Of a stretch of DNA of 64,000 nt, positions 7,074 to 51,100 are shown piece by piece. The notes under the pieces are model-generated. The model made no database searches and was not told the DNA's origin. It worked only from the letters and a program-made list of their open reading frames with translations. The DNA lies in assembly GCA_030431635.1 (NCBI GenBank), contig JAUIIL010000007.1:124001-188000 (forward strand). The letters run 5' to 3'. Numbering within the stretch: the stretch's first letter is position 1; every line of letters begins with the position of its first letter. Position numbers and translations under genes: made by a program. Origin of the DNA: Bacteriovoracia bacterium (GTDB lineage Bacteria > Bdellovibrionota > Bacteriovoracia > Bacteriovoracales > Bacteriovoracaceae).

Positions 7074-7088
7074 AGCGAGAAGTTAGCG

Positions 7089-7120
7089 AAAAAAAATTCG
7101 GAATTCAATATTTATATTCC
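7089..7120 (-). terminator. weak possible terminator between mgtE and the response regulator
   Basis: Read leftward, GGAAT pairs with ATTCC (7116-7120 and 7100-7104) and is followed by eight T (complement of A-run 7089-7096). The stem is only five base pairs, so this may be a partial or chance structure. Confidence 0.3.
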
Positions 7121-7133
7121 TTTTGAGAATTTT

Positions 7134-8528
7134 TTATATATTAAGCATCAAAGTTGCTGTTGTGAAGTAAATTAAAAGTCCCGTGATGTCCACAGCGGTT
7201 GTAATCGCAGGGCTTGCTGCCACAGCAGGATCTCCCCCCAGTTTTCTTACAACAAGAGGAAGTCCTGCGCCGATAAGGGCCGAGCTAATAACCTGTAAAG
7301 CAAGAGCAAGAGATACAGTGAGTCCTATTAAAGTAAGGCTAAATCCATTAGGGAGTGTAGACTCAAAGGAGAGAAAGTTGATTTTGATAAAAATAAGAGA
7401 GGCCACACAAAGTGAAATAAGAAATGATATCTTCAGCTCTTTAAAAATAATTTGCCACCAATCACTCAGGCTAGCTTCACCCAAAGAAAGGGCTCTAATC
7501 ACAAGAGTTGCCGATTGGCTACCAGAGTTACCTCCTGTTGCTGTCATCATTGGCATATAAACAGCCAAAATGATAAATTTCTCTAGAATAGATTGGTACT
7601 GATGAATAATTGTTCCAGATAAAATTCCAATCATTGCGAGAACTACAATCCAAATAACTCTATTCTTAAAGTGGGAAAAAGTTGAAGTACTTAAGTAGTC
7701 CTCATCGTCTTTCGATGGAGTGATCCCCATAAACTTTTCCATATCTTCAGTCTGTTCAGCAATGATTGTTTCTAGAGCATCATCGTGAGAGACAATTCCG
7801 ACCAGTTGTTTAAATGGGTTTAACACAGGAATAGCAACAAGTGAGTATTTTTCGATTTTTTGTGCAACAGATTCTCTGTCTTCATTAACTTCAGCATAAA
7901 CGAAAAACTCTTGCAAAATTTCTTCAATTTTATCTTTGGGATCGGCCATAATTAAATCTTTGAGAGTAACTAGCCCCAGCATTCTTTGTAAGTGATCGAC
8001 AACATAGATGTAATAAATCATTTTTTTTGAAGGATTATCTTGTCTTATTTTTGATAAACTATCTTGAGCTGTCATATCAATATAGATAGTCGCAAAATCT
8101 GTGTTCATAATCCCACCGGCTGTTTCAACAGGATAAGAACTTAAGGAAATAACATCTTCACGAATTCTTTTAGAAAGGAAGGGAAGAAGTTCAACTTGTT
8201 CTTCTTGATTAAGCTGTTGATAGAAGTCAGCTCGAACATCAGAGGCCATATAAGAGAAGAGTTGGGCGAAATGAACTCTCTCTATGAAGTAGAAGATTTT
8301 TCTTTTTATCTCAGTTTCAAGATCTCCAAAAATATAACCTCTTTCTTCAACAGGAAAAAGATTAAGAACCTCTAGAATATTTTCTTCACTTTCTTCATTT
8401 AAGAAGTCACAAACTTCAACAGTGGGCATCTCTTTGAGTATTTCAAATAATTCAGTAAGATTCTTAAGAGTCAAAAGCTCTTTTAATGTCGTAGTCTTAT
8501 TATCAGCATCTCTTTCAAGTTGCTCCAT
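7134..8528 (-). CDS. mgtE: Magnesium channel/transporter MgtE
   Basis: 464-residue Mg2+ channel of the inner membrane. Order of parts: the acidic alpha-helical N domain (1-130), two CBS domains (about 130-255; VDHLQRMLGLVTLKDL and NPFKQLVGIVSHDDA), a plug helix, then five membrane helices (about 285-464) with the ion-path segments PMMTATGGNSGSQSATL and GGDPAVAASPAITTAVD. The ATG at 8528 is chosen over an in-frame TTG at 8543 for its AGGT ribosome site. Mg2+ bound by the N and CBS domains closes the channel in characterised members. No M-box riboswitch was recognised in the 5' region. Confidence 0.95.
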   Translation of the reverse strand: MEQLERDADNKTTTLKELLTLKNLTELFEILKEMPTVEVCDFLNEESEENILEVLNLFPVEERGYIFGDLETEIKRKIFYFIERVHFAQLFSYMASDVRADFYQQLNQEEQVELLPFLSKRIREDVISLSSYPVETAGGIMNTDFATIYIDMTAQDSLSKIRQDNPSKKMIYYIYVVDHLQRMLGLVTLKDLIMADPKDKIEEILQEFFVYAEVNEDRESVAQKIEKYSLVAIPVLNPFKQLVGIVSHDDALETIIAEQTEDMEKFMGITPSKDDEDYLSTSTFSHFKNRVIWIVVLAMIGILSGTIIHQYQSILEKFIILAVYMPMMTATGGNSGSQSATLVIRALSLGEASLSDWWQIIFKELKISFLISLCVASLIFIKINFLSFESTLPNGFSLTLIGLTVSLALALQVISSALIGAGLPLVVRKLGGDPAVAASPAITTAVDITGLLIYFTTATLMLNI

Positions 8529-8720
8529 TTCATACCTACTCAATTCTTTTCATTGATAACAGCTTATCGTCTTGTTTTTCAAAAAGGTTATCTTTTTTCC
8601 TATAAAGAGAAAGGAAAAATATCTGACTAAACTTGTTTTATTTCAAGGAGTTTTCTTAACTAAATTCTCAGAATACCGATAGGGTAATGATTCCAAATTG
8701 GAGAAGGTCAGCCAGAAAAT

Positions 8721-10958
8721 ATGAAGAGAGTAGAAGTGAACATTTTATTTATGAACTTCGGAGACGAAGGCACACCATTTACTGAAAATATAGCAAGACT
8801 TTACGGGGATAATGCTGATTTTCAGCACCGATATGTTAATTCTCGTGAAGAAGCACTGTCAACATTACAAGAATGGGAAAATGCCATTGTTTTGGCCAAG
8901 ACATTTGATAAAGATAGCCTCACTGAAACACTAACTTTTCTAAAAGTTTGTAAGAAAAAGATCAAAGAAAATACAATTAAAGTAGGTGTTTTTAATACAA
9001 TCAAAAAGAAAACAATTGAACCTGTTTTAAGAAAAATGGGAACGAGTGAATTTTTAGAAGAAACAATACGACCCAAAACGCTTAAATTTAAAATAGATTT
9101 TTGGTCAAAAACTCTTAAACCTCAAAATGAAGAAAATCAAAATGATGATTTTAAAGTCCATGAACAAAGCAACAAAAACTTGGGGAATAACGGACAATAC
9201 GGAAATAGCGAACTTTCGATTAAATTTGTGGACGGTCTTGATGTTGAAAATGATTGCTGGAGTATTGTTTCGAAGAAAGATTGTAAGAAGGTTTTAAGAA
9301 GAATACTAGTGAGGCTTTCTGGTCCAGGTCCTTCTGCCGGGGGATGGAGCGAAGCTGAAAATAAAAATAACGATGGCAAAACCTATTGGAAATGGTCATT
9401 TCATGAAAAATGGAAAAGTAAGTTTTATGCCCAGAGTGGTGCTTTTTGGTATTTTTCAGGGAATAGGCCTGAATTTGATTGGAAGACAAATAAATGGATC
9501 TTCTCAGGAGAATCACCTTCTCTTTTCTATAAAATAGATTCAGAAAATCACTATAAGTTGAAGTTTGATAACAGTGAGTTGAAAATAGCTAAACCATCAA
9601 CTTTTTCTCAGGCCCTCCAAGACGTCATTTACGAAACAATCGCTGATGAAACAAGCTTTGAACATGAAGATGAGAGTTTTCATGATGATTTTTCGGCTTC
9701 TCGTGATAAAGAGGATTTAGGGGGAACGTTATCAGGAAATGCTGAAACTGAGAAAATTAATAATAAACCTCTCGCAGGTGATGTTTACGGTTTTGATGAT
9801 GGTGAATTTGAAGATTTAAAAGGACAAAATAATTATAGGGAAGAAAAAATTGGAGGTAATCTCCAAGGTAATGGTAGCACTGATAAAATAGAAGATGATC
9901 CTCTTAGTGGAGATATTTACGGGAGTGAATCTAAAAAGAAAAATCTTTCAGGTGAAAATAATTTTTCAGAAAATGAAATGGATGATGACTTAGATGGTTA
10001 TGGTTCATCCTCTGATATTATTGCCGATCCGATGAGAGGTGATATTTACGATCGAGAAAAGAAAAAAGAAAAACTGAAGAATAAAAATGCTTTTCAGGAG
10101 GATGAGATTGATGGCCATTTAAAAGGTCATGCTTTCATGGGAGAGGAAGAGGGGGGTGATCTTGATGGAGAGTCTTCAACTGATCACTTAGATAGAAGCG
10201 CTCTCGGAGGAGAGAGTGGGTTTCAAGAAGATGCTCGAGAGGGACATTTAAGAGGGCAGAATAGCTCTTTAAGAAAATCAAATGATAATTCAGAATCGAG
10301 AGAAGAAACTGAAGAAAGAGAGATTTTTGGTAAAAAACAATCTTTTTATAGAGAGCCTGGAAAAAATAATAATTCCAATATCGACTTAGAGCAGTTTGAA
10401 AGAAGTGAAGATGATGTAAGTACACCCACAACAAAAAAGACACAACTTTTTGTGGATAGTGGTAAAAATAAGAAAAAACAAGAGCAGATTCCTCGTTACG
10501 AAAGAGCTCCTAATGAGGACGAAGTTTTAGAAGATGGTCAACTTAACCTGGATGAATATGAAACTCTTCAAGATGAAAATGGTGAAGAAATTAGCTTAGA
10601 GTCAGGAGAAGTTCAGGTCGTCTTAGTGGTTGAAGATAATAATGGGCAAGAACTAAGCCAAGTTGGATATTTTGAAGATTTCATTGAAAACGAACTTGTT
10701 GTCAAGCTTCAAGCTGGTGTGATTCAGAAAGATATGATGACAAGAGTTCAACTCAGTCTTAATTACTCTAGTGATAAGGTTATGATGAATATGCCGGGAG
10801 CCGTTTTAGAAGTAGAAGATGACGAGGAAGGATTTGAACTGATTACATTAGAAGTTCAAAACGTAGATGAAGTGAAAAGAGAGAAATTTTTAAAGCTCTA
10901 CGGGAAAAGACAAGAAAATATTAGTAAGTTCTTAGATCAGGCAAAAGGTGTTGCCTAG
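8721..10958 (+). CDS. Large acidic repeat protein with receiver-like N-terminus and possible PilZ-like C-terminus
   Basis: 745 residues, not assigned to a named family. Residues 1-125 look like a degenerate receiver or Rossmann-type domain (alternating strands and helices, NAIVLAKTF, KVGVF). Residues 155-290 form a Trp-rich segment (GWSEAENKNNDGK, KWSFHEKWKSK, FWYFSGNRPEF). Residues 331-516 carry acidic glycine-rich repeats, entered separately. Residues about 630-735 have the strand pattern of a PilZ domain (VQVVLVVEDNNG, VGYFEDF, then VVKLQAG) but no RxxxR c-di-GMP motif was found. No signal peptide. It starts an apparent two-gene operon with the pseudo-receiver/TPR protein 8 bases downstream, suggesting a joint cytoplasmic regulatory role (inference). 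Confidence 0.65.
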   Translation: MKRVEVNILFMNFGDEGTPFTENIARLYGDNADFQHRYVNSREEALSTLQEWENAIVLAKTFDKDSLTETLTFLKVCKKKIKENTIKVGVFNTIKKKTIEPVLRKMGTSEFLEETIRPKTLKFKIDFWSKTLKPQNEENQNDDFKVHEQSNKNLGNNGQYGNSELSIKFVDGLDVENDCWSIVSKKDCKKVLRRILVRLSGPGPSAGGWSEAENKNNDGKTYWKWSFHEKWKSKFYAQSGAFWYFSGNRPEFDWKTNKWIFSGESPSLFYKIDSENHYKLKFDNSELKIAKPSTFSQALQDVIYETIADETSFEHEDESFHDDFSASRDKEDLGGTLSGNAETEKINNKPLAGDVYGFDDGEFEDLKGQNNYREEKIGGNLQGNGSTDKIEDDPLSGDIYGSESKKKNLSGENNFSENEMDDDLDGYGSSSDIIADPMRGDIYDREKKKEKLKNKNAFQEDEIDGHLKGHAFMGEEEGGDLDGESSTDHLDRSALGGESGFQEDAREGHLRGQNSSLRKSNDNSESREETEEREIFGKKQSFYREPGKNNNSNIDLEQFERSEDDVSTPTTKKTQLFVDSGKNKKKQEQIPRYERAPNEDEVLEDGQLNLDEYETLQDENGEEISLESGEVQVVLVVEDNNGQELSQVGYFEDFIENELVVKLQAGVIQKDMMTRVQLSLNYSSDKVMMNMPGAVLEVEDDEEGFELITLEVQNVDEVKREKFLKLYGKRQENISKFLDQAKGVA
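9711..10270 (+). repeat. tandem 43-residue protein repeats within the 745-residue protein
   Basis: Four to five diverged copies of a unit with pattern LxGxNNxxExExxGxLxGxGSxxxIxxDPLxGDIY. The two best copies, beginning DLKGQNNY and NLSGENNF, are each exactly 43 residues. Flanking copies decay, and the last lacks the DPLxGDIY part. DNA-level identity is low, so the repeats are old and kept by selection on the protein. Confidence 0.75.
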
Positions 10959-10966
10959 AGTAAAAA

Positions 10967-12286
10967 ATGAGAGAAATATCAAGTGTGCTTAAAAATTTCT
11001 TGGAAAATAGGCGGATTTTAATCGTTGATGTTGATCATTCGTCAAAAAATAGACTAGCAAGTAGCTTGACCAAAATTGGGTGCCCTAAAGATAATATTTT
11101 TTTATGCAGTGATGCCTCTCAAGCTTTAGATATTGGGGTAAAGAAAAGCATCGGTATTATTATATCTAGCGATGAAATAGGTCTTTCAGGTCCTTATGAG
11201 CTATTCAAGGAACTTAGACAAAAACTATCAAAGATGCATCAGGCAACTTGTATTCTAATTGCATCGAACCTTTCTCAATCGCTAGTTGCCAAAGCAGCAG
11301 AAGAAGGGGTTGATTCAATTATCTTGAGACCATATACCATGAATCTTCTCATTGATAATCTTAATGATTTAGTTGAAAAAAAAGTTAATCCAAGTACTTA
11401 CTTAAGTGGTATCAAAGAAAGTGAAAAACTAATAGAAAATGAAGAGTTTTCTAAGGCCAGTAGTATTCTTTTTGATCTTATTGCTAAAGAAAAGAACCCT
11501 TCACTTGCTCATTACTATAGTGGTCTCATTAAAGAAAAATTGGGAGAAATACCAGAAGCAATCAAGCATTTTGAGGAAGCAAGTAAAAAAAATAAATTTC
11601 ACATAAAATCTCTCGATGCTCTTTTTAATGCTTATAAAAAAGATGGGTCTCATTTAAAGGCCTATTCAATGGGAAAAGATCTTCTTCTTTATTTTCCTGA
11701 TAACGTGATGAGATTTAATGATGTTATTCGCCTAGCGATCATAACAAAGGCGTATGATGATTTTAGGTTCATTTATGATAGTTTTAAGAAACTAAAAAAT
11801 AAAGATTCAAGTATTGTTAAGTTTCTCTGCTCTGGTTTATTTATTTCAGGTAAGTTTTATCTTTATAAGGGTAATGATTCAGAAGCAAAAAAGTTTTTTG
11901 ATATGATTGCCGAATCTTTTTCGGCCCATTCAAAGTTTTTAAAAGTAATCATTGAAACGTTGGTTGAGTTTGGAAAGTATAATGAGGCCATTAATTATTT
12001 AGGTTTTTTTTCAGACGATAAAAAACAAGATCTCAACTATCAAGTCAGTGAATTTCTCATTACTCATGAAATTTTTGATACGGAAGAGCTTACCGATAGA
12101 GCTGAAGAATTTATTAATAATGGAGCGGAAAGTTTTGTTCTTTACCGAAAGCTTATTAAGGGTTTATATCTGACTGGAGGCAAAATTCGAGCTGAAAAAC
12201 ACCTGGAGAAAGCTAAAGAAATTTGGAAAGAGCACGCTCAGACTCTTGATAAAATCAGAGAAAGCTTCTCTGAAAACGCTGCTTAA
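10967..12286 (+). CDS. Pseudo-receiver plus TPR-repeat protein
   Basis: 439 residues. Residues 15-135 are a receiver-like domain ([12 protein letters not shown]) in which the phospho-acceptor Asp is replaced by Ser67 ([12 protein letters not shown]) and the conserved Lys-Pro by Arg121-Pro122, so phosphorylation is unlikely. Residues 140-430 are tetratricopeptide-like helical repeats ([15 protein letters not shown]-type helices, then [12 protein letters not shown]). It probably acts as a protein-binding scaffold with the repeat protein coded just upstream. The stop shares TTAA with the convergent UDP-xylose synthase gene. Partners cannot be read from sequence. Confidence 0.75.
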
Positions 12287-13215
12287 ATTTTTTGTTTAAA
12301 ATACTCTATTGTTTTTTCTAATCCCTGCTCAAGTTCAATCTCTGGGTGCCAATTCAAATGTTTTTTAGCAAGAGAGATATCAGGTTTTCTCTGAAGAGGG
12401 TCATCTTTAGGAAGCTCTTGGAAGGTGATTGATGAAGAAGAGTTTATTTTAGCAATGATTTTTTCTGCGAGTTCTTTGATCGTAAATTCGTTAGGATTTC
12501 CAATATTAATCGGTCCTGTAATATTTGAGGAGGAGTTCATCAGCCGAATCATTCCTTCGATGAGATCGTCCACATAACAAAAACTCCTTGTTTGAGAACC
12601 ATCTCCATAGATAGTTAAGTTTTCCCCTTTAAGGGCCTGAATAATAAAGTTTGAAACAACTCTACCATCCTCTGGATGCATGAAAGGTCCGTAAGTATTA
12701 AAAATTCGTATTATTTTCGTTTGAATAGAAAATCTTCTTTGATAATTCACAAAAAGTGTTTCTGAAATTCTTTTTCCTTCATCATAACAAGCTCTCGGGC
12801 CTATGGGGTTAACATGTCCCCAATACTGTTCGGTTTGTGGATGGACTTGAGGGTCTCCATAGACTTCACTTGTTGAAGCTTGAAGGATTTTAGCATTATT
12901 TTTTTTGGCAAGTTCGAGTGTATTTTTGGCTCCTAAATAAGATGTTTCAATAGTATATAGTGGATCGAGTTGGTAGTGTGGAGGAGAAGCTGGGCAAGCT
13001 AGGTTATATATTTCATCAACTTCAAACTCAACAGGCTCTCTTATATCGTGTTCAACAAATTGAAATCTCTCTTCTTTTATCAATGAGCTGATATTAGCGA
13101 GATTACCAGTGTAGTTATTATCAAGACATATAACTTGATGACCTTCTCTGTGGAGTCTTTTACACAAATGAGAACCTAAAAAACCACTGCCTCCAGTAAT
13201 TAATATCTTTTTCAT
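12283..13215 (-). CDS. UDP-glucuronate decarboxylase (UDP-xylose synthase), SDR family
   Basis: 310-residue extended short-chain dehydrogenase. It carries the nucleotide motif GGSGFLGSH, substrate-loop segment [15 protein letters not shown], catalytic [10 protein letters not shown] and YDEGK (Tyr144, Lys148), and [14 protein letters not shown], all typical of UDP-glucuronate decarboxylases that give UDP-xylose. The UDP-glucose dehydrogenase supplying UDP-glucuronate is not in the window. Its ATG overlaps the metF stop (TAATG), so it is read with metH-metF although its job is in glycan precursor supply. A 4-ulose-releasing bifunctional form is less likely, as the length fits plain decarboxylases. 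Confidence 0.88.
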
Positions 13216-20954: not shown

Positions 20955-21713
20955 TTAAAAAGAAAATTTCTCTTTCAGACCATTAGTAGCTGATCTAAGA
21001 AAAAGAGCATCAATTCCATAAGCGATAAATTTACTTCCATTTTTAATGGCTTCAGCTAAATCAGCTTCTATTGGGTTAACAATATGAACTCCCATTTTAA
21101 CATTTGAAGCATTAACTTGAAGTTCTATATTTTTCATGACTTCTTTAAACCGATCGTTATGAAAAATTCCAGGTTGTCCCATGGAGGCAGAGAGATCGTA
21201 TGGTCCAACCATGATAGCATCCAAAGAGTCGTTCTTGAGAATTTCTGATAAGTTTTCAACTGCACTAATACTTTCAATTTGAGCAATAATGACGATTTCC
21301 TCATTAAAGTTCTCATAATAGTTCTTAAAATTCTTTCCATACAGATTGGCCCTAGAGAAACCAACCCCCCTCTTTCCTTGAGGTGGATACTTAATATAAT
21401 TAATGACTTTTTGAAGTTCAGTCGCATTGGAAATCATCGGAACAATAATTCCTTTTGCCCCACATTCAAGAGCGGTCTTAATCGCTTTTTCGTCTTGTTC
21501 TCCCACTCTGACAAAAGGAGTTTTTTGTGCTAGCTCAATACTCTTAATACACTCGAGCATACTTTCTTCATTAAAAACACCATGCTCTAGATCAAGGGCT
21601 ACCCAGTCAAAATCAGTATGGGCCAAGACTTCGGCCACTTCAGGGGATGGAATTTGCATCCAAGTTCCAATTGTCAGTTCATTATTTTTTAATTTTTGCT
21701 TAATCTTTTTCAT
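20955..21713 (-). CDS. HpcH/HpaI-family class II pyruvate aldolase
   Basis: 252-residue TIM-barrel aldolase, near the usual 250-260. Family motifs: WVALDLEHG, VRVGE, CGAKGIIVPMI, a metal-binding Glu in QIESISAVEN, and MVGPYDLSASMGQPG. Relatives (HpaI, RhmA, GarL) join or split pyruvate and an aldehyde to give 2-keto-3-deoxy acids. It follows a KdsB-like cytidylyltransferase gene by 5 bases on the same strand. Inference: it may make, rather than break, a 3-deoxy-ulosonic acid that the neighbour activates. A plain catabolic role is possible but odd in this locus. Confidence 0.85.
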   Translation of the reverse strand: MKKIKQKLKNNELTIGTWMQIPSPEVAEVLAHTDFDWVALDLEHGVFNEESMLECIKSIELAQKTPFVRVGEQDEKAIKTALECGAKGIIVPMISNATELQKVINYIKYPPQGKRGVGFSRANLYGKNFKNYYENFNEEIVIIAQIESISAVENLSEILKNDSLDAIMVGPYDLSASMGQPGIFHNDRFKEVMKNIELQVNASNVKMGVHIVNPIEADLAEAIKNGSKFIAYGIDALFLRSATNGLKEKFSF

Positions 21714-21718
21714 TTTGA

Positions 21719-22498
21719 TTATCTCAAATAGGTTTTCATTAATTCATCATTGAGCATAAGTTTTTCAACTCTTTGAAGATCTTTTTCATTATCAACAGAG
21801 TAGGACTCATCAGGAGATTCGGCCATAAGAACATCTATTCCATGCTCCAATAACCTAAGCATATCAATGGACTCTATTTTTTCTAGTTCGGTAGGCTCTA
21901 GTTGGTTAAAAAGTTTTAAAAAATCTTTCTTAAAAGGCATGATACATATTTGTTTATAAGCATAAGTTAAAGAGGGGTTTCTATTAAAATTAGGAATAGG
22001 CTCTCTTGAGAAATAAAGAGCGCGGTCTTTTTTCTTATTTAAAACAACTTTAATCTCATTTTCATCTTTAAATTCTTCCTCCGTTCTAATTTTTCCATAA
22101 AGGTTAAGAACGCTTGGGCCTTCAAATTCAAGAAAGTTCTTACAGGCTGTGTCGATCATACGAGGAGTGACCATTGGCTCATCGCCCTGAATCATTACGA
22201 TTAAATCAACATCTTCACCCGTTTGCTTCTCTATAATTTCAATGGCCTCAGCAGTTCTATCCGTAGCTCTTTCATGAGAAGAGCTTGTCATGACTGCTTT
22301 TCCTTTTAATTCGTTAGTAATAAAGTCATAGATTTCTTGATTACATGTTGCAACATAAACATCATCAAGTACTTGCGATTGCTGGCTTCTTAGATAAACG
22401 TGCCCAACCATCGGGAAATTATGAAGTTTGGCCATTGGTTTTCCTGGGAAACGACTGCTCTCCATTCTAGCAGGGATAATTCCAATTTTCTTTGACAC
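21719..22498 (-). CDS. KdsB-like 3-deoxy-ulosonate cytidylyltransferase
   Basis: 259 residues starting at GTG 22498, seven bases after AAGGAG; the longer frame from 22579 has no ribosome site. N-terminal IIPARMESSRFPGKP is the CTP-binding loop, and IQGDEPMV and the SREPIPN segment match CMP-Kdo synthetases. The usual HxSGTDR appears as HERATDR, with the Gly changed to Ala, suggesting a substrate related to but not identical with Kdo. It forms a two-gene unit with the HpaI-type aldolase. A true housekeeping KdsB would more often sit away from O-antigen genes. Confidence 0.82.
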   Translation of the reverse strand: MSKKIGIIPARMESSRFPGKPMAKLHNFPMVGHVYLRSQQSQVLDDVYVATCNQEIYDFITNELKGKAVMTSSSHERATDRTAEAIEIIEKQTGEDVDLIVMIQGDEPMVTPRMIDTACKNFLEFEGPSVLNLYGKIRTEEEFKDENEIKVVLNKKKDRALYFSREPIPNFNRNPSLTYAYKQICIMPFKKDFLKLFNQLEPTELEKIESIDMLRLLEHGIDVLMAESPDESYSVDNEKDLQRVEKLMLNDELMKTYLR

Positions 22499-22602
22499 TG
22501 TTAACTCCTTAATATTAAAAAAAAGACTATTATTCTTTATATTTGGTAAGAGGTAAAGTAAACCTATATTGGTAAGCACAATTGAGTAAAGAGTTTTATT
22601 AG

Positions 22603-23496
22603 ATGAAAAAGAAACATAGAGCTTTAGTTATTGGTGGTAGCGGTTTTATTGGCAGGGCTACGGCTTTAGAATTGATAGAAAACGGTTACCAGGTCAAAGT
22701 CTTTGACCAAATTGAAGTTGATATTCACCCAGAGATTGAATTTGTTAAAGGTAGTATTCTTAATAAAGAGGAAGTTCTTAAAGCTTGCCAAGATTGTGAT
22801 TATATTTATCACTTTGCTGGCTGGGCCGATATGGCCAAAAGTATTGATCACCCTGCTGAAGTAATAGAATCAAATATAATGGGTACAACTCATATCCTTG
22901 AAGCGTGCAGAAAAATTGAAATTAAAAAACTTGTTTTTGCAAGTAGCATGTATGTTTTTAGTAATAATGGAAGTTTTTATAAAACAAGCAAGCAATGTTG
23001 CGAACTACTCATAGAGGAATATGCTAAAACCTATGGTTTTGATTATTGCATATTAAGGTATGGCTCTTTATATGGCCCAGGAGCAACCCACGGGAACGCT
23101 GTGTATGAACTTATCAGACAAGCTTTAGAGACGAGGAAAATTTCTTATTGGGGAACAGGGCAAGAGGTAAGGCAGTACATTCATGTTAAAGACGCTGCGA
23201 AGGGATCTGTTAAGGTGATAGAAGATAGTTTTAAAGAAAATTATGTTTCGTTAACAGGTTTGGAAGATATACAAACAAAGAACTTGCTTGAAATGATCAA
23301 TGAGATTTTAGGTGGTGATATTGATATTCAAACGACTGACGATCCTCATCTAAGAACTCACTATATGCTAACTCCCTTTAATTTTATGCCAAAAACTGGT
23401 GTTAAACTGATTTTTTCACAATACAAAGACTTGGGACAAGGCGTCCTTGAATGTATTCATGAAATTCATACTAAGATAGTTCAAAGTGATGCTTAA
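22603..23496 (+). CDS. NAD-dependent sugar epimerase/dehydratase (SDR)
   Basis: 297-residue extended SDR. GGSGFIGRA binds NAD, HFAGWADMAKS is the substrate-side loop, and catalytic residues are in ASSMYVF and YKTSK. The motif RYGSLYGPG is retained. The exact sugar nucleotide is not predictable. It heads a run of tightly spaced genes (lactonase-like, dehydrogenase, phosphatase) and diverges from the KdsB-like gene, so all may serve one acidic-sugar pathway (inference). It overlaps the next gene by 8 bases. Confidence 0.78.
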   Translation: MKKKHRALVIGGSGFIGRATALELIENGYQVKVFDQIEVDIHPEIEFVKGSILNKEEVLKACQDCDYIYHFAGWADMAKSIDHPAEVIESNIMGTTHILEACRKIEIKKLVFASSMYVFSNNGSFYKTSKQCCELLIEEYAKTYGFDYCILRYGSLYGPGATHGNAVYELIRQALETRKISYWGTGQEVRQYIHVKDAAKGSVKVIEDSFKENYVSLTGLEDIQTKNLLEMINEILGGDIDIQTTDDPHLRTHYMLTPFNFMPKTGVKLIFSQYKDLGQGVLECIHEIHTKIVQSDA

Positions 23497-24103
23497 CTAC
23501 TTCACCTATGATGAAGATAAAATAACAAACGAAATTATTGCTCTTTCTTTAAAGGCAGAAGACGAGTTCACCCTTGCTATCTCAGGAGGAAGATCTGTTA
23601 CAGGAATACTTACTCAGCTGAAAAATGCAGACGTTGATTTTCATTCATGGCATTTTGTCATTGTGGATGAAAGGGATATTAAAAAGAATTCAAGTGAATC
23701 TAATTTCAATCAACTGATAAGTTTCTTAGGCCATGAAATAAAAATAACTCACTTCTACCAGGAAGAAGAAATAAACTTAGAGCATTCCTTAGAGAAATAC
23801 GAACAAATTAAAAAAATTGATCTGGCCCTTTTAGGAGTTGGGGAAGACGGACATATTGCAAGTCTGTTTCCCGGAAAAGAGTACGGAAATAGTATCATTA
23901 TAGAAGTGTTGGATTCTCCTAAGCCTCCAATGAGAAGATTGAGTGTTAATTATTCTTTTTTTTCTCGTTGTGAAAAAGCGTACTTAATCGCTAACGGAGA
24001 AGAGAAGTTTGAAACTGTGATGACAAAAAAGTCAGACCTCCCCTTATTTAGGCTTTCCCAATTTACTGTGGTAGAACTGTATTCAGATCAATACAAAGGT
24101 TAA
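23489..24103 (+). CDS. 6-phosphogluconolactonase-family protein
   Basis: 204 residues, a little shorter than typical Pgl (about 230). The family signatures are all present: ISGGRSVTGIL near the N-terminus, VIVDERD, LLGVGEDGHIASLFPG, and SPKPPMRRLS. These bind a phosphorylated sugar lactone in known members. GTG 23486 and ATG 23489 are adjacent; the ATG is preferred. Its place between an SDR and a 2-hydroxyacid dehydrogenase in a glycan locus suggests a role in making a sugar-acid precursor rather than in the pentose phosphate pathway, though a duplicated Pgl is possible. Confidence 0.82.
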   Translation: MLNYFTYDEDKITNEIIALSLKAEDEFTLAISGGRSVTGILTQLKNADVDFHSWHFVIVDERDIKKNSSESNFNQLISFLGHEIKITHFYQEEEINLEHSLEKYEQIKKIDLALLGVGEDGHIASLFPGKEYGNSIIIEVLDSPKPPMRRLSVNYSFFSRCEKAYLIANGEEKFETVMTKKSDLPLFRLSQFTVVELYSDQYKG

Positions 24104-24104
24104 A

Positions 24105-25019
24105 ATGAAAGTAGTGGTGACATCTTCATCTTTTTCTCAAAACAAAGCTCTTGTGAAGGAACTTAAAGAAGTAGTTCAGGGTGATATTGTTTTTAATGAA
24201 GAAGGAAAGCGCTTCAATCCTCAAGAGTTGGAGGCTTTTTTAAAGGAAGCAGAAGCTGCAATTGTTGGACTTGATCACATCACACCAGAGCTTTTAGATA
24301 AACTTCCTCATCTAAAATTTATTTCAAAATATGGAGTCGGGTTAGATAATATTGATCTTAAAGCTTGTGAGGAGAGAGGTATTAAAATTGGTTGGAAACC
24401 AGGGGTGAATAAACTCTCAGTTGCTGAAATGGTTTTGGGTTATATGCTCTCTTTATCTAGAAATCTTTTTCAAAGCTCTCTTGAACTTAAATCGGGAACT
24501 TGGAAAAAAAACGGTGGTGGGCAACTCACAGGAAAAACGGTTGGCATTATCGGTTTTGGGCATATAGGGCAAGAAGTTTTCAGGCTTCTAAAACCCTTTC
24601 AATGTAAAATATTGGCCAATGATATCAACAATAATGTTTTTCAAAATGTTGATGTTTTTCAAACTTCTAAAGAAGAAATATATCAGAGTTGTGATATCAT
24701 TACTGTTCATACTCCTTTAACGAAGGAGACGCAAAACCTTCTTAATCAACAAACGTTTTTACAAATGAAGCAAAAACCCATCATCATTAATTCCGCTCGT
24801 GGAGGCCTTGTTAACGAGGATGATATAATAGAGGCCCTCAATAAAAAACAAATCAGTGCTTATGCAGTAGATGCTTATATTAATGAACCAAATCCCTCTA
24901 CTGAATTAACCCAAAGAAATGATGTTTTTTGTACACCTCATATTGGTGGTAATTCCAGGGAGGCTGTTTTAGCTATGGGTAGGGCCGCGATTGAAAACAT
25001 CAAGGAGTTTATTAAGTGA
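24105..25019 (+). CDS. D-isomer-specific 2-hydroxyacid dehydrogenase
   Basis: 304 residues, SerA/GyaR-like without an ACT domain. NAD-binding GIIGFGHIGQE, the catalytic Arg in NSARGGLVN, the Glu in NEPNPS and the His in TPHIGGN are all in place. It would interconvert a 2-keto acid and a D-2-hydroxy acid. It starts one base after the lactonase-like gene and overlaps the HAD gene as GTGA, so the genes are translationally coupled. Substrate unknown; a role in the same ulosonic or sugar-acid route is inferred. Confidence 0.85.
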   Translation: MKVVVTSSSFSQNKALVKELKEVVQGDIVFNEEGKRFNPQELEAFLKEAEAAIVGLDHITPELLDKLPHLKFISKYGVGLDNIDLKACEERGIKIGWKPGVNKLSVAEMVLGYMLSLSRNLFQSSLELKSGTWKKNGGGQLTGKTVGIIGFGHIGQEVFRLLKPFQCKILANDINNNVFQNVDVFQTSKEEIYQSCDIITVHTPLTKETQNLLNQQTFLQMKQKPIIINSARGGLVNEDDIIEALNKKQISAYAVDAYINEPNPSTELTQRNDVFCTPHIGGNSREAVLAMGRAAIENIKEFIK

Positions 25020-25702
25020 GTTCCTCTTTAGTTCTTTTTGATTTTGATGGAGTGATTTTTGACTCCTCTGATGTCAAAACACAATCTTTTGTAGACGTAT
25101 ATAGAGAAGAGGCGACTCCAGAACAGTTAAAAGAAATAGAGCTTTATCATAGAGAAAATTTTGGAATAAACCGAATTTATAAGTTCCAACACTATGAAAA
25201 AGAAATTTTTAAACGAGAATATACAGAAGAGAGGATAATACACCTTTGTGATAAGTTTGCTCATATTGTTTCACAAAGAATTTTAACGAAGAGTATTTTT
25301 CCTCGGACAAAAGAGTTCCTGGAGAAATTAAAAGCCGATCAATTGAACCTTGTGATTGTTTCTGGAGCTCCAGAAAAAGAGATAAGAGAAATTTTAGATG
25401 CTAATGGGCTTACTTCCTATTTTGAGGAAATTTATGACGGGATGAAAAGTAAGATAGAGCATATTCAAACAATTTTATACAAATATAAAACAGTTCCCTC
25501 TCAAATGATTTTTTTAGGAGATGGGACTACTGATTACAATGCCGCTACTCATTATGATATCCCTTTTGTCGCAGTGAATGCTGCTTTCCCACCTCAAAAA
25601 AATGAGGCGATGAGAGTAGAATCAATTGCAGAGCTCAAAAGTAGGTACTCCGAGTTTCTTAAGCACTTTGAAAATCTTGGCAGTAAAGCGAATTCTCAGT
25701 AA
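25016..25702 (+). CDS. HAD-superfamily phosphatase
   Basis: 228 residues, GTG start overlapping the previous stop and preceded by AAGGAG. Motif I is LFDFDGVIFDSS (Asp9 nucleophile, Asp11), motif II is VSGAPEKEI and motif IV is FLGDGTTDYNAA. A helical cap (residues 20-90) makes it a beta-phosphoglucomutase/Gph-like C1-cap type. Likely removes a phosphate from a sugar-acid intermediate, as KdsC does in Kdo synthesis, though it is not KdsC by sequence. It closes the coupled set begun at 22603. Confidence 0.84.
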   Translation: MSSSLVLFDFDGVIFDSSDVKTQSFVDVYREEATPEQLKEIELYHRENFGINRIYKFQHYEKEIFKREYTEERIIHLCDKFAHIVSQRILTKSIFPRTKEFLEKLKADQLNLVIVSGAPEKEIREILDANGLTSYFEEIYDGMKSKIEHIQTILYKYKTVPSQMIFLGDGTTDYNAATHYDIPFVAVNAAFPPQKNEAMRVESIAELKSRYSEFLKHFENLGSKANSQ

Positions 25703-25726: not shown

Positions 25727-26506
25727 ATGACACTAAATAGACTAATTATTGATATTGGAACCCATGAGGCTCAAGAACTACGGGTTTTAAACGGCAATAG
25801 ATGTTACACCTCAAAAATTTATTTATACTGGTGGTATGACTGGTGTAAAAGACAAGTGAAAAAACTCATTCGTTATAATGGTCTTATAGAGTACGGAACG
25901 GGAGCTTTTAAAATTTCACCGGCTTCTTTTGGATTAAAAAATCACCTTAAGATTATCAAACAAATTTTGAACCCAACCGATTACTTACAGCATACTAAAA
26001 TTTTAGCTATCGATCCTGTTGCCTCTATAACAACAAGATTTATAAAAAAAATTCAAACGACTTTTCAGGTTTACTTTCTTCCTGTTGCGATTCTTCCTCA
26101 TCAACAAACAGATGACTCTAAGCTTACTAAGTTTTATATTGAAAAAAATTCTTTAAGCTCATCATTAGACAAAAGTTCAACTAGCCGAGACTTAATTCTA
26201 TGCTCTGCCTTAAGAACAAAAAAAATTGTAAACTCTCTTAAAGAGCTTCAGATCATTGATCAGAATACTGAGATTGTATTAAGAATGAATTGTGAAGGGG
26301 CAGAGTTTGGAGTTATTGAAGACATTGTTTCAGAAGGACATATTCCTAAAACAATTCTTGGAAGTCTAAATGATGTGAGAAAAAAGTATGGTGAAGAAGA
26401 AGCTATGAAAATGAATAATTTTTTAGAAAAAAATAACATAGAATTTAATTATTTTAAGGGTAGTGATCCTGGAACTTGGATTATGGCCTTTGAACACTTG
26501 GGTTAA
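25727..26506 (+). CDS. FkbM-like methyltransferase-fold protein
   Basis: 259 residues. LIIDIGTHEAQEL at the N-terminus takes the place of AdoMet motif I (usually DxGxNxG), and EIVLRMNCEGAEFGVIED matches the FkbM motif that holds the acceptor-side acidic residue. The middle is poorly conserved and charged. Probably a sugar O-methyltransferase, but the altered motif I leaves activity uncertain. First of three FkbM-like genes in the locus. Confidence 0.55.
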   Translation: MTLNRLIIDIGTHEAQELRVLNGNRCYTSKIYLYWWYDWCKRQVKKLIRYNGLIEYGTGAFKISPASFGLKNHLKIIKQILNPTDYLQHTKILAIDPVASITTRFIKKIQTTFQVYFLPVAILPHQQTDDSKLTKFYIEKNSLSSSLDKSSTSRDLILCSALRTKKIVNSLKELQIIDQNTEIVLRMNCEGAEFGVIEDIVSEGHIPKTILGSLNDVRKKYGEEEAMKMNNFLEKNNIEFNYFKGSDPGTWIMAFEHLG

Positions 26507-36384: not shown

Positions 36385-36455
36385 TTTTCCTAGTCTATTC
36401 TTGTTGGCCGTTATAAAGTCTTGGAGAAAATTAATTGAAAAAGGGTCAAGCTATT

Positions 36456-37478
36456 ATGCTAAGCGGTAAAAACATTCTTATCACAGGTGGAACGGGGTCT
36501 TTTGGTAAGGCCTTTGCTGAAGCCGTTTTAAAAACCTATCCCAAAATTAATAAGGTCATTATTTTTTCAAGAGATGAACTTAAACAGTTTGATATGAAAA
36601 ATAGTGAAACGTTTCAGCCTTATACAGAAAAGGGAACTAACCAATTGCGTTTTTTTATTGGAGATGTTCGCGACGGTCAAAGGCTTAAAAGAGCTTGTGA
36701 AGGTGTTGATTACATTATTCATGCAGCAGCTCTCAAGCAAGTTCCCGCTGCTGAATACAATCCTCTTGAATGTATTAAAACAAATATTAATGGAGCTCAA
36801 AATATTATTGATGCTTCGATTGATTGTGGAATTAAAAAAGTGGTAGCGCTCTCAACAGACAAAGCTGCTGCTCCTATTAATCTCTATGGAGCAACCAAGC
36901 TTTGTTCAGACAAACTCTTCATTGCTGCTGGTAATATGATTGGGGAAAGAAAACTAACTTTCTCTATCGTAAGATATGGTAACGTGATGGGCTCTCGTGG
37001 TTCAGTGATCCCTTTCTTTATCAAAGAAAAGAAAAATGGCGTACTTCCTATCACTCATCCAGAAATGACTCGTTTTAACATCACTCTTGAAGATGCAACG
37101 AAGATGGTTCTCTACGCACTCGAAAATACGATAGGTGGTGAAATCATTGTCCCAAAGATCCCTTCTTACAGAATAACTGATATCGCTAAGGCCATTGGCC
37201 CTGAGTGTGAGTTAAAAGATATCGGTATAAGACCTGGGGAGAAGCTTCACGAGGAAATGATTACAGAGTCTGATTCACCTCACACTGTTGATTGCGGAAA
37301 GTACTATGTGATTCTCTCACCTGCTATGGATAATTTAAATCAATACGTTGAAAAGTTTAATGCAAAAAAAGTACCTATTGGTTTCAAGTACAACTCCGGA
37401 GCTAATACTGAATGGTTAACTCATGAGGAGTTAAGAACACTCATTAAAAATCACGTTGATTCTACCTTCGAGGTTTAG
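36456..37478 (+). CDS. pseB: UDP-GlcNAc 4,6-dehydratase (inverting), pseudaminic acid step 1
   Basis: 340 residues. TGGTGSFGKAFAEAVL, IFSRDELKQFDM, HAAALKQVPAAEYNP and STDKAAAPINLYGATK (Tyr and Lys of YxxxK) match PseB closely, and it is followed at one base by PseC. It makes UDP-2-acetamido-2,6-dideoxy-beta-L-arabino-4-hexulose, chemically the same product as the FnlA-like enzyme at 29.4 kb. ATG 36456 chosen; the frame back to TTG 36435 adds unconserved residues. Confidence 0.93.
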   Translation: MLSGKNILITGGTGSFGKAFAEAVLKTYPKINKVIIFSRDELKQFDMKNSETFQPYTEKGTNQLRFFIGDVRDGQRLKRACEGVDYIIHAAALKQVPAAEYNPLECIKTNINGAQNIIDASIDCGIKKVVALSTDKAAAPINLYGATKLCSDKLFIAAGNMIGERKLTFSIVRYGNVMGSRGSVIPFFIKEKKNGVLPITHPEMTRFNITLEDATKMVLYALENTIGGEIIVPKIPSYRITDIAKAIGPECELKDIGIRPGEKLHEEMITESDSPHTVDCGKYYVILSPAMDNLNQYVEKFNAKKVPIGFKYNSGANTEWLTHEELRTLIKNHVDSTFEV

Positions 37479-37479
37479 A

Positions 37480-38625
37480 TTGCAAAACATTCCCTACGGA
37501 AGACAAAGCATAAACGAAGAAGACATACAGAGTGTTGTAGAGGTCTTAAGATCGGACTTTTTAACCCAAGGCCAAAAAGTCCCTGAATTTGAAGACTCTC
37601 TTTGTAGGCTTACAGGAGCTTCTCATGCGGTTGCCGTCAATAGCGCAACTTCGGCCCTTCATCTTGCTTATTTAGCTTTAAATGTCAAAGAGGGAGATAT
37701 AGTTTGGACAACTCCTAATACTTTTGTAGCGACAGCAAATGCGGCGAGATTTTGTGGAGCAAAAGTTGATTTTGTTGATATCGATCCTCGTACCTACAAT
37801 ATGTCTGTTGATAAGTTGAAAGAAAAACTTCAAATAGCAAAAGAGCAAAAACGTTTGCCAAAAGTTGTGACTCCTGTGCATTTTTCAGGACAATCTTGCC
37901 AGATGAAAGAGATTCATGACCTAGCAAATGAATATGGTTTTAAAATTGTCGAAGATGCCTCTCACGCGATTGGAGGACGTTATCAGAATAAACCGGTTGG
38001 TTCTTGCCAATACTCTGATATTTGTATTTTTAGCTTTCACCCGGTGAAGATTGTGACAACTGGAGAGGGAGGAGCAGCCCTTACAAACGATAGAGAGTTG
38101 GCCAAGAAAATGAGACTTCTATCAACTCACCATACAACTAAAGAGCTTCCTGCTGATAAATATAAAGTTGATGGTCCTTGGTATTACCAACAAACTGGAC
38201 TTGGATTTAATTACCGTTTAACAGATATGCAGGCAGCTTTAGGAATAAGCCAGCTCAAGAGGATTGATGATTTTATTAAACGTCGTCATGAAATTGCTCA
38301 TAAATATGAGTACTTATTAAAAGATCTGCCTTTGGTAAGGCCTTTCCAGCTACCAGAGAGCTTTAACTCTTACCATTTGTATGTCATTAGAGTTCAGAAA
38401 AGAGATGAAGTTTTTGATCATTTAAATAAAAACAATATTAAAGTTAATGTTCATTATATCCCAGTTCATCTGCAAGAGTATTATAAAGAACAAGGATTTA
38501 AAGAAGGGGATTTTCCTGAAGCTGAAAAATATTACCAAGAAGTAATTTCTCTTCCGATGTATTACAATTTAACAGATGAAGAGATTGAGTATGTCGTTAA
38601 AACTCTCAAGGAAGCTCTTCTGTGA
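37480..38625 (+). CDS. pseC: UDP-4-amino-4,6-dideoxy-N-acetyl-beta-L-altrosamine transaminase
   Basis: 381-residue DegT/DnrJ/EryC1 aminotransferase, second step to pseudaminic acid, using PLP and glutamate. IPYGRQSINEEDI at the N-terminus is typical of PseC; the PLP lysine is Lys190 in SFHPVKIVTTGEGG. I place the start at TTG 37480, six bases after GAGG and one base after the pseB stop. The stop overlaps pseF as GTGA. The substrate assignment rests on the N-terminal motif and the pseB/pseF neighbours. Confidence 0.92.
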   Translation: MQNIPYGRQSINEEDIQSVVEVLRSDFLTQGQKVPEFEDSLCRLTGASHAVAVNSATSALHLAYLALNVKEGDIVWTTPNTFVATANAARFCGAKVDFVDIDPRTYNMSVDKLKEKLQIAKEQKRLPKVVTPVHFSGQSCQMKEIHDLANEYGFKIVEDASHAIGGRYQNKPVGSCQYSDICIFSFHPVKIVTTGEGGAALTNDRELAKKMRLLSTHHTTKELPADKYKVDGPWYYQQTGLGFNYRLTDMQAALGISQLKRIDDFIKRRHEIAHKYEYLLKDLPLVRPFQLPESFNSYHLYVIRVQKRDEVFDHLNKNNIKVNVHYIPVHLQEYYKEQGFKEGDFPEAEKYYQEVISLPMYYNLTDEEIEYVVKTLKEALL

Positions 38626-39305
38626 AACTTGCGATCATTCCAGCAAGAGGGGGAAGTAAAAGAATTCCTCATAAAAATATTAAAAACTTCTTAGGAAAAC
38701 CGATCATTTCATATTCAATTCAATCTGCCTTGGATTCAAACTGTTTTGATGAAGTCATGGTTTCTACTGATGACCCTGAGATTGCTGATATTGCTAAAAA
38801 GTATGGTGCTCAAGTTCCATTCTTAAGGAGCGAGGAAAACTCAGGGGATTTTGCTACAACAGCTCAAGCCATTGAGGAAGTTCTTTATCAATATAAAAAG
38901 GCAGGAAAAGAGATTCAGTACTTTTGCTGTCTCTATCCAACCGCTCCTCTTATTAATAAAGAGATTCTTAAGGAGTCTTTCTCGCTTTTTAATCAAGAGG
39001 AGTGGGATGCTCTGATCTCCATCTGTCGTTTTAGCTATCCTATCCAAAGAGCTCTCATAAGTGATGAGAAAGGTGTTCGTTTTGCTGAGCCTCAGTTTTC
39101 TCAAACCCGTTCTCAGGACTTAGAAGAGAGATTTCATGATGCGGGAGCTTTTTATTGGGGAAAAACGACTACTTTTTTGAAAGAGAAAACTCTTTTTCCA
39201 AAAAAAACACGAGGTTTTGAATTAAGTGAATTAAATGTTCAAGATATTGATACTCTTAATGATTGGGCATTGGCAGAGTTAAAATTTAAACTCCAACTAC
39301 ATTAA
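38622..39305 (+). CDS. pseF: Pseudaminic acid cytidylyltransferase
   Basis: 227 residues, GTG start. The CTP-binding loop AIIPARGGSKRIPHKN, EVMVSTDDPEIADIA, YPTAPL and RSQDLEERFHDAGAFYWG are standard for PseF, which makes CMP-pseudaminic acid, the activated donor. It ends the first Pse gene block; the middle enzymes (G, H, I) are 9 kb downstream after a minus-strand operon. The stop shares TTAA with the convergent FkbM gene. Confidence 0.92.
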   Translation: MKLAIIPARGGSKRIPHKNIKNFLGKPIISYSIQSALDSNCFDEVMVSTDDPEIADIAKKYGAQVPFLRSEENSGDFATTAQAIEEVLYQYKKAGKEIQYFCCLYPTAPLINKEILKESFSLFNQEEWDALISICRFSYPIQRALISDEKGVRFAEPQFSQTRSQDLEERFHDAGAFYWGKTTTFLKEKTLFPKKTRGFELSELNVQDIDTLNDWALAELKFKLQLH

Positions 39306-40228
39306 AGATATTTTTTGCTATATTGATAAAGATGCTTCATTCCAAATAGGTTCATGAGCGCTTCAAATTCTTCCTTTCGACCTTGAATCATTTTTTTACC
39401 ATTCTCACGTGTCCAGTCTGGGCAGAACCATGCATCTCCATGCATAGGAAGGACAGTTTCTTCATACCTCTTTGAAGAGAGGTGTTTATCTGGAGCACTT
39501 CTCGCGTAATATGTCTGATGAAACATTAGGTATCCCTTATTATAAAGAAACTTTCCCAGTTCAAAGAATAGGGCGCCATCTTTATAGATAGGGACAAAAC
39601 TTATTTCTGTCTTAATAAAAAGTGGTAGGTTTTTGTTAAGACCTGAGAGTATATCGAGTTCAGACCCTTGAGTATCAAGTTTAATGTAGTCAACCTTGAG
39701 TTCTTCATCATCTAAAACTTTCTCTAAAGTTGTCATAGGGAGTTCAATTTTTTCCACAATATTAAAACGATCAGAGTTCCCTGATGTGTATAACTCTAAA
39801 AATTCTCCAGTGGGTTCATAATAAGAACTTGTTCCCCCTCTTTGACCGATATTGAGAATTCTTGTTCCTACCTTCTCTCCCAAGAGGCTCGGAATGACGT
39901 GATAATTTTTCTCTCTAAGCTCTTGGGCTTCTTTGGGATCTGGTTCAACCAGAATAAATTCGCACTGATCGAGATAGGGAGCAAACTCACTCTCTGGACC
40001 CCCTCTGGCGCCAATATCAAGAATACTTAGTTTTTTCCCTTTAAGGATTTTTTTCAGCTCTGTTGGAGAAGTTTGAAAAAATTTTTTTTCAGCTTCTCGT
40101 TGAGCTAGATAAATGAGATTAAATTTTTTCTCAATATGATTTAAAATGGGCCGATAGAGGCAATTGTAGCGACAGCTCTTTATTAATGCCTTTAATTTTT
40201 CAGGAACAAGCTTTTTCAGTAAATTCAT
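39302..40228 (-). CDS. FkbM-family methyltransferase
   Basis: 308 residues. SILDIGARGGPESEF replaces motif I, FILVEPDPKEAQEL binds the AdoMet ribose, and YIKLDTQGSELDILSG is the FkbM signature. A basic amphipathic N-terminus (MNLLKKLVPEKLKALIKSC) may attach it to the membrane. Last gene of the eight-gene minus operon that starts at 48448, seven bases after the ABC exporter gene. Likely methylates a sugar of the exported glycan; acceptor unknown. Confidence 0.84.
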   Translation of the reverse strand: MNLLKKLVPEKLKALIKSCRYNCLYRPILNHIEKKFNLIYLAQREAEKKFFQTSPTELKKILKGKKLSILDIGARGGPESEFAPYLDQCEFILVEPDPKEAQELREKNYHVIPSLLGEKVGTRILNIGQRGGTSSYYEPTGEFLELYTSGNSDRFNIVEKIELPMTTLEKVLDDEELKVDYIKLDTQGSELDILSGLNKNLPLFIKTEISFVPIYKDGALFFELGKFLYNKGYLMFHQTYYARSAPDKHLSSKRYEETVLPMHGDAWFCPDWTRENGKKMIQGRKEEFEALMNLFGMKHLYQYSKKYL

Positions 40229-40235
40229 AAGGACT

Positions 40236-43822: not shown

Positions 43823-43824
43823 TA

Positions 43825-44637
43825 TTAGACTTGTATTCTTTTGGCCTCGAGAGCTTTGTTGTCTAGTAGTTCAATGAGCTCTTCATAAGTCATCGTTTCA
43901 TCACCTGGAAGTTTTATTTCTGTATCCTTACTTACTGCCTGGTAAGAAGGTGATTCATCAAGGTATTGAATAATATCTCTAAGAAGTGGGATGCCATTAT
44001 CTGAAGGTACATTTTTATAGATTTCTCTGGCAAGTTCTATATCGGTATCATAATCAACAGTTAAAGAATAATAGGGTCTGTCATGTTCTGGAGAGGGAGA
44101 TAAAACCAAGCAATTAAACTTTGAAGGATTGAAAGAGAAAAAAGAGAGGTAGCCACTATGATTAGGGTCTGGAATTAGTTCTCTTAATTTAGGAAACATC
44201 TCTTTTGAGTGGATTTCAGCGGTCACTCCTAGCGGGAGATGGTTAGTTCTGGTGTATTCACAATCGTGGTTAACGTGCTCCTCAATCATGCGATCAATAT
44301 ATTCATGATCGGTAAAGGGATTATCGCCTGTGACTCTAATAATAAGATCTCCATTATGAATTTCAGCAATATTCATGAGTCTATCCAGGACATCTCTTTC
44401 ATGACCAGCATAGGCCTTTATTCCCCAATTTTTTGCTTTTTGCATAAGAATCTCATCTTGAGGGTGTGTGGAAGTGGCCAAAACAATCTCATCAATATAC
44501 TTGGAAAGTTTAAGTCTTCTAATAATCTGCTCACTCATTGTATATCCATTGAGATCAATGAGTGCTTTTTCTTTGAGCCTGGTTGATTTCATTCTTGTGA
44601 TGAGGCAAGCAATAACTTTTTTCTTTTGATATCCCAT
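43825..44637 (-). CDS. SpsF-like cytidylyltransferase
   Basis: 270 residues, ATG after AGGAA; the frame to 44700 would run into the upstream gene. ACLITRMKSTRLKEKALIDLNGY is the nucleotide-binding loop of the SpsF/NeuA-like group, and IIRVTGDNPFTDHEYID is diagnostic of SpsF. A C-terminal segment of about 50 residues is extra. SpsF proteins are thought to activate nonulosonic or related acids with CMP in Bacillus spore-coat glycan. Set between the LIC12162 transferase and the NeuD-like gene. Confidence 0.8.
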   Translation of the reverse strand: MGYQKKKVIACLITRMKSTRLKEKALIDLNGYTMSEQIIRRLKLSKYIDEIVLATSTHPQDEILMQKAKNWGIKAYAGHERDVLDRLMNIAEIHNGDLIIRVTGDNPFTDHEYIDRMIEEHVNHDCEYTRTNHLPLGVTAEIHSKEMFPKLRELIPDPNHSGYLSFFSFNPSKFNCLVLSPSPEHDRPYYSLTVDYDTDIELAREIYKNVPSDNGIPLLRDIIQYLDESPSYQAVSKDTEIKLPGDETMTYEELIELLDNKALEAKRIQV

Positions 44638-44644
44638 TTCGTTC

Positions 44645-46340: not shown

Positions 46341-46349
46341 AAAAGCTCC

Positions 46350-48448: not shown

Positions 48449-48508
48449 AAGGTATATATTTACTATCATTTATAAGGTTCGCAAAATAAATACGTCAGAA
48501 AATCTTTT

Positions 48509-48537: not shown

Positions 48538-48544
48538 CATACGA

Positions 48545-51099: not shown

Positions 51100-51100
51100 T

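Follow-up and report, generated by a model that had tools for sequence, protein, structure and literature searches.

Gene content and organisation of the locus

The stretch of DNA analysed here, referred to as the window, comprises 64,000 nucleotides of contig JAUIIL010000007.1 of a Bacteriovoracia bacterium (assembly GCA_030431635.1, positions 124,001 to 188,000). Between its positions 20,955 and 25,702 it carries six genes that may encode a route to a 2-ulosonic acid activated with cytidine monophosphate (CMP), independent of the synthase KdsA of 3-deoxy-manno-octulosonate (Kdo) biosynthesis. The genes lie in two divergent transcription units. The minus-strand unit consists of a class II pyruvate aldolase of the HpaI/GarL type (ALD, 20955..21713; PF03328, 125 bits) and, 5 bp away, a KdsB-like cytidylyltransferase (longest open reading frame 21719..22579). 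The plus-strand unit encodes an extended, NAD-type short-chain dehydrogenase/reductase (SDR, 22603..23496), a 6-phosphogluconolactonase-like hydrolase (PGL, 23486..24103), a D-2-hydroxyacid dehydrogenase (DHD, 24105..25019) and a HAD phosphatase (25016..25702), with an 11-bp overlap between SDR and PGL, a 1-bp gap between PGL and DHD and a 4-bp overlap between DHD and HAD. Profile searches assigned these proteins to the families HpcH_HpaI aldolase, CTP_transf_3, NAD-dependent epimerase/SDR, Glucosamine_iso/6PGL, 2-Hacid_dh and HAD_2, and each of the six retains its catalytic motifs. The reading frames, families and arrangement named in the original prediction, which had been made from the DNA letters and their translations, are thus real and intact. 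The KdsB-like protein probably starts at the GTG at 22498, which is preceded by AAGGAG, rather than at 22579; the strandless divergent region between the units then spans about 104 bp (22499..22602). A promoter and terminator scan gave nothing stronger than shuffled sequences did, consensus promoter matches being equally common in both.

ALD keeps the metal and catalytic residues H44, R69, E147 and D173 in an alignment to the E. coli YfaU/HpaI structures and 65 cassette homologues, and it scores below every equivalog cut-off (171.6 against 368.8 for HpaI, 163 against 406.75 for GarL and 135.9 against 441 for RhmA). Its relatives in the PDB include HpcH/HpaI hydroxyketoacid aldolases. The SDR shows the features of a distinct subfamily, namely the Rossmann motif GGSGFIG, the NAD-type D35, the S-Y126-K130 residues, R190 and an HYxLTPFxFxPK motif. 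PGL falls short of the TIGR01198 cut-off (110.5 against 124.45 bits) and, when aligned to 1vl1, keeps the active-site motifs DER and GVGEDGHIAS (GxGxDGHxAS). DHD, a protein of 304 aa, consists of the catalytic and NAD domains only, lacks an ACT domain and stays well below the SerA model TIGR01327 (233.8 against 454 bits); it has the triad of its superfamily (R232, E261, H279) and D173, so that an NAD-type Asp is present in both dehydrogenases. The HAD protein, of the PGP/beta-PGM-like subfamily, retains D9, D11, K146, D169 and D173.

The KdsB-like enzyme differs from canonical KdsB

The KdsB-like protein belongs to the PRK13368 subfamily (279.1 bits, cut-off 255) and scores below the kdsB equivalog TIGR00466 (143.6 against 155.2 bits). 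In a tree with nine canonical comparison sequences it falls into a clade apart from canonical KdsB with support of 100/100; one of the nine, E. coli KdsB, served only as an extra canonical row. As originally predicted, HERATDR (22256..22276, minus strand) stands in place of the canonical HxSGTxR. In addition the protein lacks the [KR]HxGxY and LEQLR motifs of the Kdo-binding domain, where it has YKQICIM (21938..21958, minus strand; C-terminal domain) and, in the position of xLEQLR, SIDMLR (21854..21871, minus strand). Nearly all 80 members of the clade share these markers in the forms HERA[ST][DE]R, KQxCII and S[VI]DMxR, and the pocket substitutions (His to Gln, EQ to DM, SG to RA) are almost clade-wide, whereas the canonical rows retain the His and Glu, and KpsU and other solved structures also have the canonical motif form. 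The GKP, QGDEP and C-terminal VD metal-ligand motifs are retained. The C-terminal domain of the canonical enzymes binds Kdo, and the roles of the metal-binding Asp residues are known (PMC3149649). Two of the three diagnostic changes, KQxCII and S[VI]DMxR, map to this domain. The clade may represent a new CMP-ulosonate synthetase specificity.

The genome to which the window belongs (3.3 Mb in 19 contigs) also encodes a canonical KdsB on another contig (C2), with a KdsA above the curated cut-off about 2 kb away. This makes the product of the KdsB-like gene a second enzyme of the genome and rules out that it is the only Kdo-type cytidylyltransferase, which would have spoken against the original prediction. 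A search of plasmids with the KdsB-like protein returned only canonical-type KdsB of less than 38% identity.

Conserved association and independence of KdsA

A scan with the KdsB-like protein of one genome per species, covering 84,980 species, yielded 80 loci from many bacterial phyla and from archaea; the gene and its partners are found together in some 20 phyla, with archaea, Bacillota and bacteria of the candidate phyla radiation (CPR) among them. Of these 80 loci, 64 have DHD nearby, 55 ALD and 49 an SDR relative, and where at least 7 kb were available on both sides (45 loci), DHD was found in 39 and ALD in 35, which makes DHD the most constant partner of the clade. Among the 35 loci containing both SDR and DHD, 34 have ALD and 32 have HAD, and in most loci ALD directly adjoins the KdsB-like gene. 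As a control, 11 neighbourhoods of canonical KdsB were taken from genomes that also hold the KdsB-like gene: ALD, SDR, HAD, PGL and cyclase were found in none of them, and DHD in one, at a distance of 7.7 kb. Set against this control, the counts place the association far above chance, and a chance association is ruled out. The gene set is real and conserved.

Gram-negative bacteria normally use KdsA. Among 21 genomes holding the KdsB-like gene, KdsA was above the cut-off in 8, and no KdsA above the cut-off was detected in the carriers from archaea (four), CPR (three), Bacillota (three) and Actinomycetota (one). The cultivated Syntrophomonas wolfei subsp. methylbutyratica is an example of a carrier without a KdsA match. 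The Bacillota and Actinomycetota carriers show weaker matches to the KdsA profile (about 104-124 bits), which we read as proteins resembling 3-deoxy-arabino-heptulosonate 7-phosphate synthase. Since the set occurs in genomes without a detected KdsA, it is KdsA-independent.

Exchange of parts between versions of the cassette

The loci fall into three types. Type A (35 loci) combines ALD, the KdsB-like gene, DHD, SDR, a lactonase and HAD. Type B (10 loci) has ALD, the KdsB-like gene, a Gfo/Idh/MocA oxidoreductase, a SIS protein and DHD, joined in six loci by a protein resembling 3-dehydroquinate synthase. In type C (9 loci) the KdsB-like gene is accompanied by a fusion of GT2 and zinc-dependent alcohol dehydrogenase (Zn-ADH), by DHD in all nine and by a cyclase in five, with neither SDR nor ALD in any; its gene content suggests that the fusion has been exchanged for the SDR as C1 dehydrogenase. 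Only one of the 35 type A loci and one of the 10 type B loci lack ALD. In the tree of the KdsB-like proteins the types are not cleanly separated, and because type A alone requires 19 changes we do not claim a single origin for each type. Eight loci (L017, L028, L043, L065, L068, L074, L077 and L078) show a second module around the KdsB-like clade, composed of an S-adenosylmethionine-dependent methyltransferase, a Gfo/Idh/MocA oxidoreductase, SIS, DHD, another SDR and a protein resembling 3-dehydroquinate synthase; the third module is that of type C (L011, L019, L024, L038, L045, L050, L053, L076 and L082).

Part-for-part exchange is also seen at the lactonase position. Among the 35 type A loci, 17 have only a cyclase-family hydrolase, 8 only a PGL-like protein (including two weak matches, L029 and L058), 10 neither and none both, a mutual exclusion with a hypergeometric P of 0.0019 if the loci are taken as independent, shared descent being ignored. 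The cyclase family, to which kynurenine formamidase and isatin hydrolase belong, has the metal motif HxxxHxDxxxH (PMC5341072). This motif is shared by the hydrolase replacing PGL, which is otherwise only distantly similar in sequence to KynB and whose lactone substrate is presumed from context.

A second survey, with the SDR as query in 291 genomes of the phylum of the window, added 14 further carriers, in which a cyclase or PGL, HAD and DHD are again found, often beside a NeuA-like cytidylyltransferase. The cytidylyltransferase of the cassette is thus either KdsB-like or a member of one of several NeuA-like clades. One of the latter (FastTree support 0.998) comprises sequences from four of these loci, from locus L118 of the same phylum and from an Acuticoccus plasmid, on which the operon reads ALD-NeuA-DHD-HAD-SDR. 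In L118 itself (7879-13069) a KdsB-like and a cassette-type NeuA-like gene are both present around SDR and ALD, and this locus is possibly an intermediate of the exchange. The closest relative of the window cluster, L116, is 66% identical in SDR, 56% in DHD and 51-78% in the flanking genes. In its equivalent (6324-12144) of window positions 20955-25702 the block EPI-[...]-SDR-PGL-DHD-HAD-GT4-CapE-CapG is kept, and at the position of ALD and the KdsB-like gene it has a NeuA-like gene, a radical-SAM/SPASM-like protein and a second SDR.

Five genomes that are 84-100% complete (G642, G492, G479, G483 and G543) carry the SDR together with some or all of the lactonase, DHD and HAD genes and no local ALD; searches of these genomes and of three type C genomes for an HpcH/HpaI aldolase gave only weak, pyruvate-kinase-like matches. 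The oxidative set therefore does not need an aldolase. The conserved core of the cassette is SDR, lactonase, DHD and HAD, not the aldolase, and the other parts are exchanged. A C1 dehydrogenase, a lactonase, DHD and a cytidylyltransferase, the combination by which we propose to recognise the cassette, occur together in the window and its relatives.

A proposed oxidative route to a CMP-ulosonic acid

We propose, with a probability of about 0.5, that the six genes serve to make a CMP-activated 2-ulosonic acid mainly by oxidation and independently of KdsA, and that this acid is used by the large surface-polysaccharide locus that surrounds them. The substrates, the order of the steps and the role of the aldolase we infer from the protein families and their context. 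The SDR would be a C1 dehydrogenase acting on a sugar or sugar phosphate, and would oxidise an aldose, probably an aldose phosphate, to the lactone with NAD; the PGL-like protein, or in relatives the unrelated cyclase-family hydrolase, would hydrolyse the lactone to the aldonate; and DHD would oxidise C2 of the aldonate to yield a 2-keto-aldonate. One member of the D-2-hydroxyacid dehydrogenase family, YiaE of E. coli, is a 2-ketoaldonate reductase (cited in PMC6303947). After removal of the phosphate by HAD, the KdsB-like enzyme (the NeuA-like enzyme in relatives) would join the 2-ulosonic acid to CMP. SDR, lactonase, DHD and HAD together would thus supply a 2-keto-aldonic acid, and it is acids of this kind that enzymes of the KdsB and NeuA families activate; the oxidative route would need no synthase condensing phosphoenolpyruvate (PEP). 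ALD would be an added step, either altering the stereochemistry of the 2-keto acid by aldol chemistry at C3-C4 or extending a sugar aldehyde with pyruvate.

Several points weigh against this proposal, and the SDR is the main doubt. Its best scores are with nucleotide-sugar epimerases and dehydratases and it retains the Arg of the GxGxxRxYxHVxD motif, so that a nucleotide sugar may be its substrate. The closest relatives of DHD are phosphoglycerate dehydrogenases and not 2-ketoaldonate reductases, and 10 type A loci have neither lactonase. In some loci the NeuA-like gene could belong to a nonulosonic acid pathway encoded nearby, and the near-constant presence of ALD in loci with the KdsB-like gene and SDR makes the label of an added step uneasy in that branch. 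Finally, the comparison genomes are mostly draft metagenome-assembled genomes, and absences are therefore weaker than presences.

But does the aldolase not rather stand at the centre of the route? The original prediction held that a sugar could be oxidised to a lactone, the lactone opened, pyruvate condensed with an aldehyde and the resulting 3-deoxy acid activated with CMP. In such a route the SDR, PGL, DHD and HAD proteins would prepare or trim the acceptor. Much of this stands: KdsA is dispensable, the families do co-occur across many phyla, and SDR and lactonase are best read as a part that oxidises the sugar and opens the lactone. Condensation of pyruvate as the heart of the route is not supported, although ALD keeps all its catalytic residues and adjoins the KdsB-like gene in most loci. 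SDR, lactonase, DHD and HAD are found beside a cytidylyltransferase in genomes without a detected aldolase, none of the nine Zn-ADH loci contains ALD, the pair of ALD and KdsB-like gene is swapped in L116, and a lactonase and a 2-hydroxyacid dehydrogenase are of no obvious use for an aldehyde acceptor. We thus regard a pyruvate-condensing route as unlikely, if still worth serious consideration, and the aldolase-free sets and the exchange in L116 suggest that, in the sets lacking the aldolase at any rate, the product may be a 2-keto-aldonic rather than a 3-deoxy acid. The affinity of DHD to phosphoglycerate dehydrogenases and the hydroxyketoacid aldolases among the structural relatives of ALD would also fit a scheme in which DHD and HAD convert 3-phosphoglycerate to hydroxypyruvate, which ALD adds to an aldehyde, giving a 3-hydroxy-ulosonic acid for activation. 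However, DHD is retained in loci and genomes in which no aldolase was found, which rules it out as a mere supplier of the aldolase, and SDR and lactonase would be left unexplained; we consider this scheme improbable.

Two further explanations are disfavoured, and we hold each to be very improbable. The best PDB match of the KdsB-like protein is E. coli KpsU and its NCBI subfamily is named 3-deoxy-manno-octulosonate cytidylyltransferase, as would be expected of a redundant or capsule-specific Kdo pathway whose neighbouring genes make other sugars of the polysaccharide. Yet the gene occurs in genomes without a KdsA match, archaea included, its product scores under the kdsB equivalog cut-off, other residues stand throughout the clade in place of the His and Glu of canonical KdsB and KpsU, and the conserved partners are missing around canonical KdsB. 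Polysaccharide loci recombine freely and abound in families of this kind, and the two units are divergent in the window, so that two unrelated sugar pathways could lie side by side by accident. Against this speak the same families, often in the same order, in distant phyla, the SDR subfamily with its own motif, the part-for-part swaps and the negative control.

Relation to known pathways

The proposed oxidative route resembles the Kdo pathway (KdsD-KdsA-KdsC-KdsB) and capsular KpsU in that a HAD phosphatase is followed by a cytidylyltransferase of the KdsB fold with GKP, QGDEP and VD kept. It differs in the lack of KdsA, in the altered sugar-binding residues of its KdsB-like enzyme and in a carbon skeleton that would probably arise by oxidation, with an aldolase in some versions, not by PEP condensation. 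With the nonulosonic acid pathways (NeuB/NeuA, PseI/PseF and LegI/LegF) it would share the activation with CMP of a 2-keto sugar acid destined for surface glycans and, in some versions, a NeuA-like cytidylyltransferase, but the conserved set has no PEP-condensing synthase of the NeuB type. The three reaction types, and in part the families (6PGL and D-2-hydroxyacid dehydrogenase), recur in the oxidation of sugar acids by glucose(-6-phosphate) dehydrogenase, lactonase and the 2-ketogluconate reductases GhrB/YiaE; the coupling with a CTP-dependent cytidylyltransferase indicates that the cassette is apparently biosynthetic. ALD, likewise, has the fold, metal and catalytic residues of the HpaI/GarL/YfaU aldolases, but scores far under their equivalog cut-offs and is encoded next to a cytidylyltransferase in a locus for polysaccharide biosynthesis.

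Neighbouring genes in the window

Immediately 3' of HAD lies a gene (25727-26506) for a 259-aa protein without a match in NCBIfam or Pfam. Farther downstream, genes of the pseudaminic/legionaminic type (36435-51099) include two NeuB-family synthases (45306-46340 and 50050-51099), a NeuA-like cytidylyltransferase (38622-39305) and an SpsF-like cytidylyltransferase (43825-44700), and the locus may hence produce more than one CMP-sugar. Consecutive HisH-like, HisF-like and N-acetyl sugar amidotransferase-like genes (51053-53647) resemble acetamidino-sugar clusters.

Conclusions

To our knowledge the well-known CMP-ulosonic acids, that is Kdo and sialic, pseudaminic and legionaminic acid, all begin with a PEP-condensing synthase. 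Among the open-access papers searched we found no described pathway with the present gene set, in agreement with the original prediction; the set is probably undescribed, its novelty being provisional. Tentatively, it may represent a biosynthetic logic of bacteria and archaea in which two oxidations and a lactone opening replace PEP condensation, in which the dehydrogenases, lactonases and cytidylyltransferases can each be exchanged for others, and in which one branch would have recruited an HpaI-type aldolase as an aldol-type epimerase or chain extender. If this is true, a route that lacks a PEP-condensing synthase and extends to archaea and Gram-positive lineages would enlarge the surface sugars by one class, would account for many genes named Kdo cytidylyltransferase in genomes without Kdo, and would be a case of a nucleotide-sugar pathway assembled from modules.

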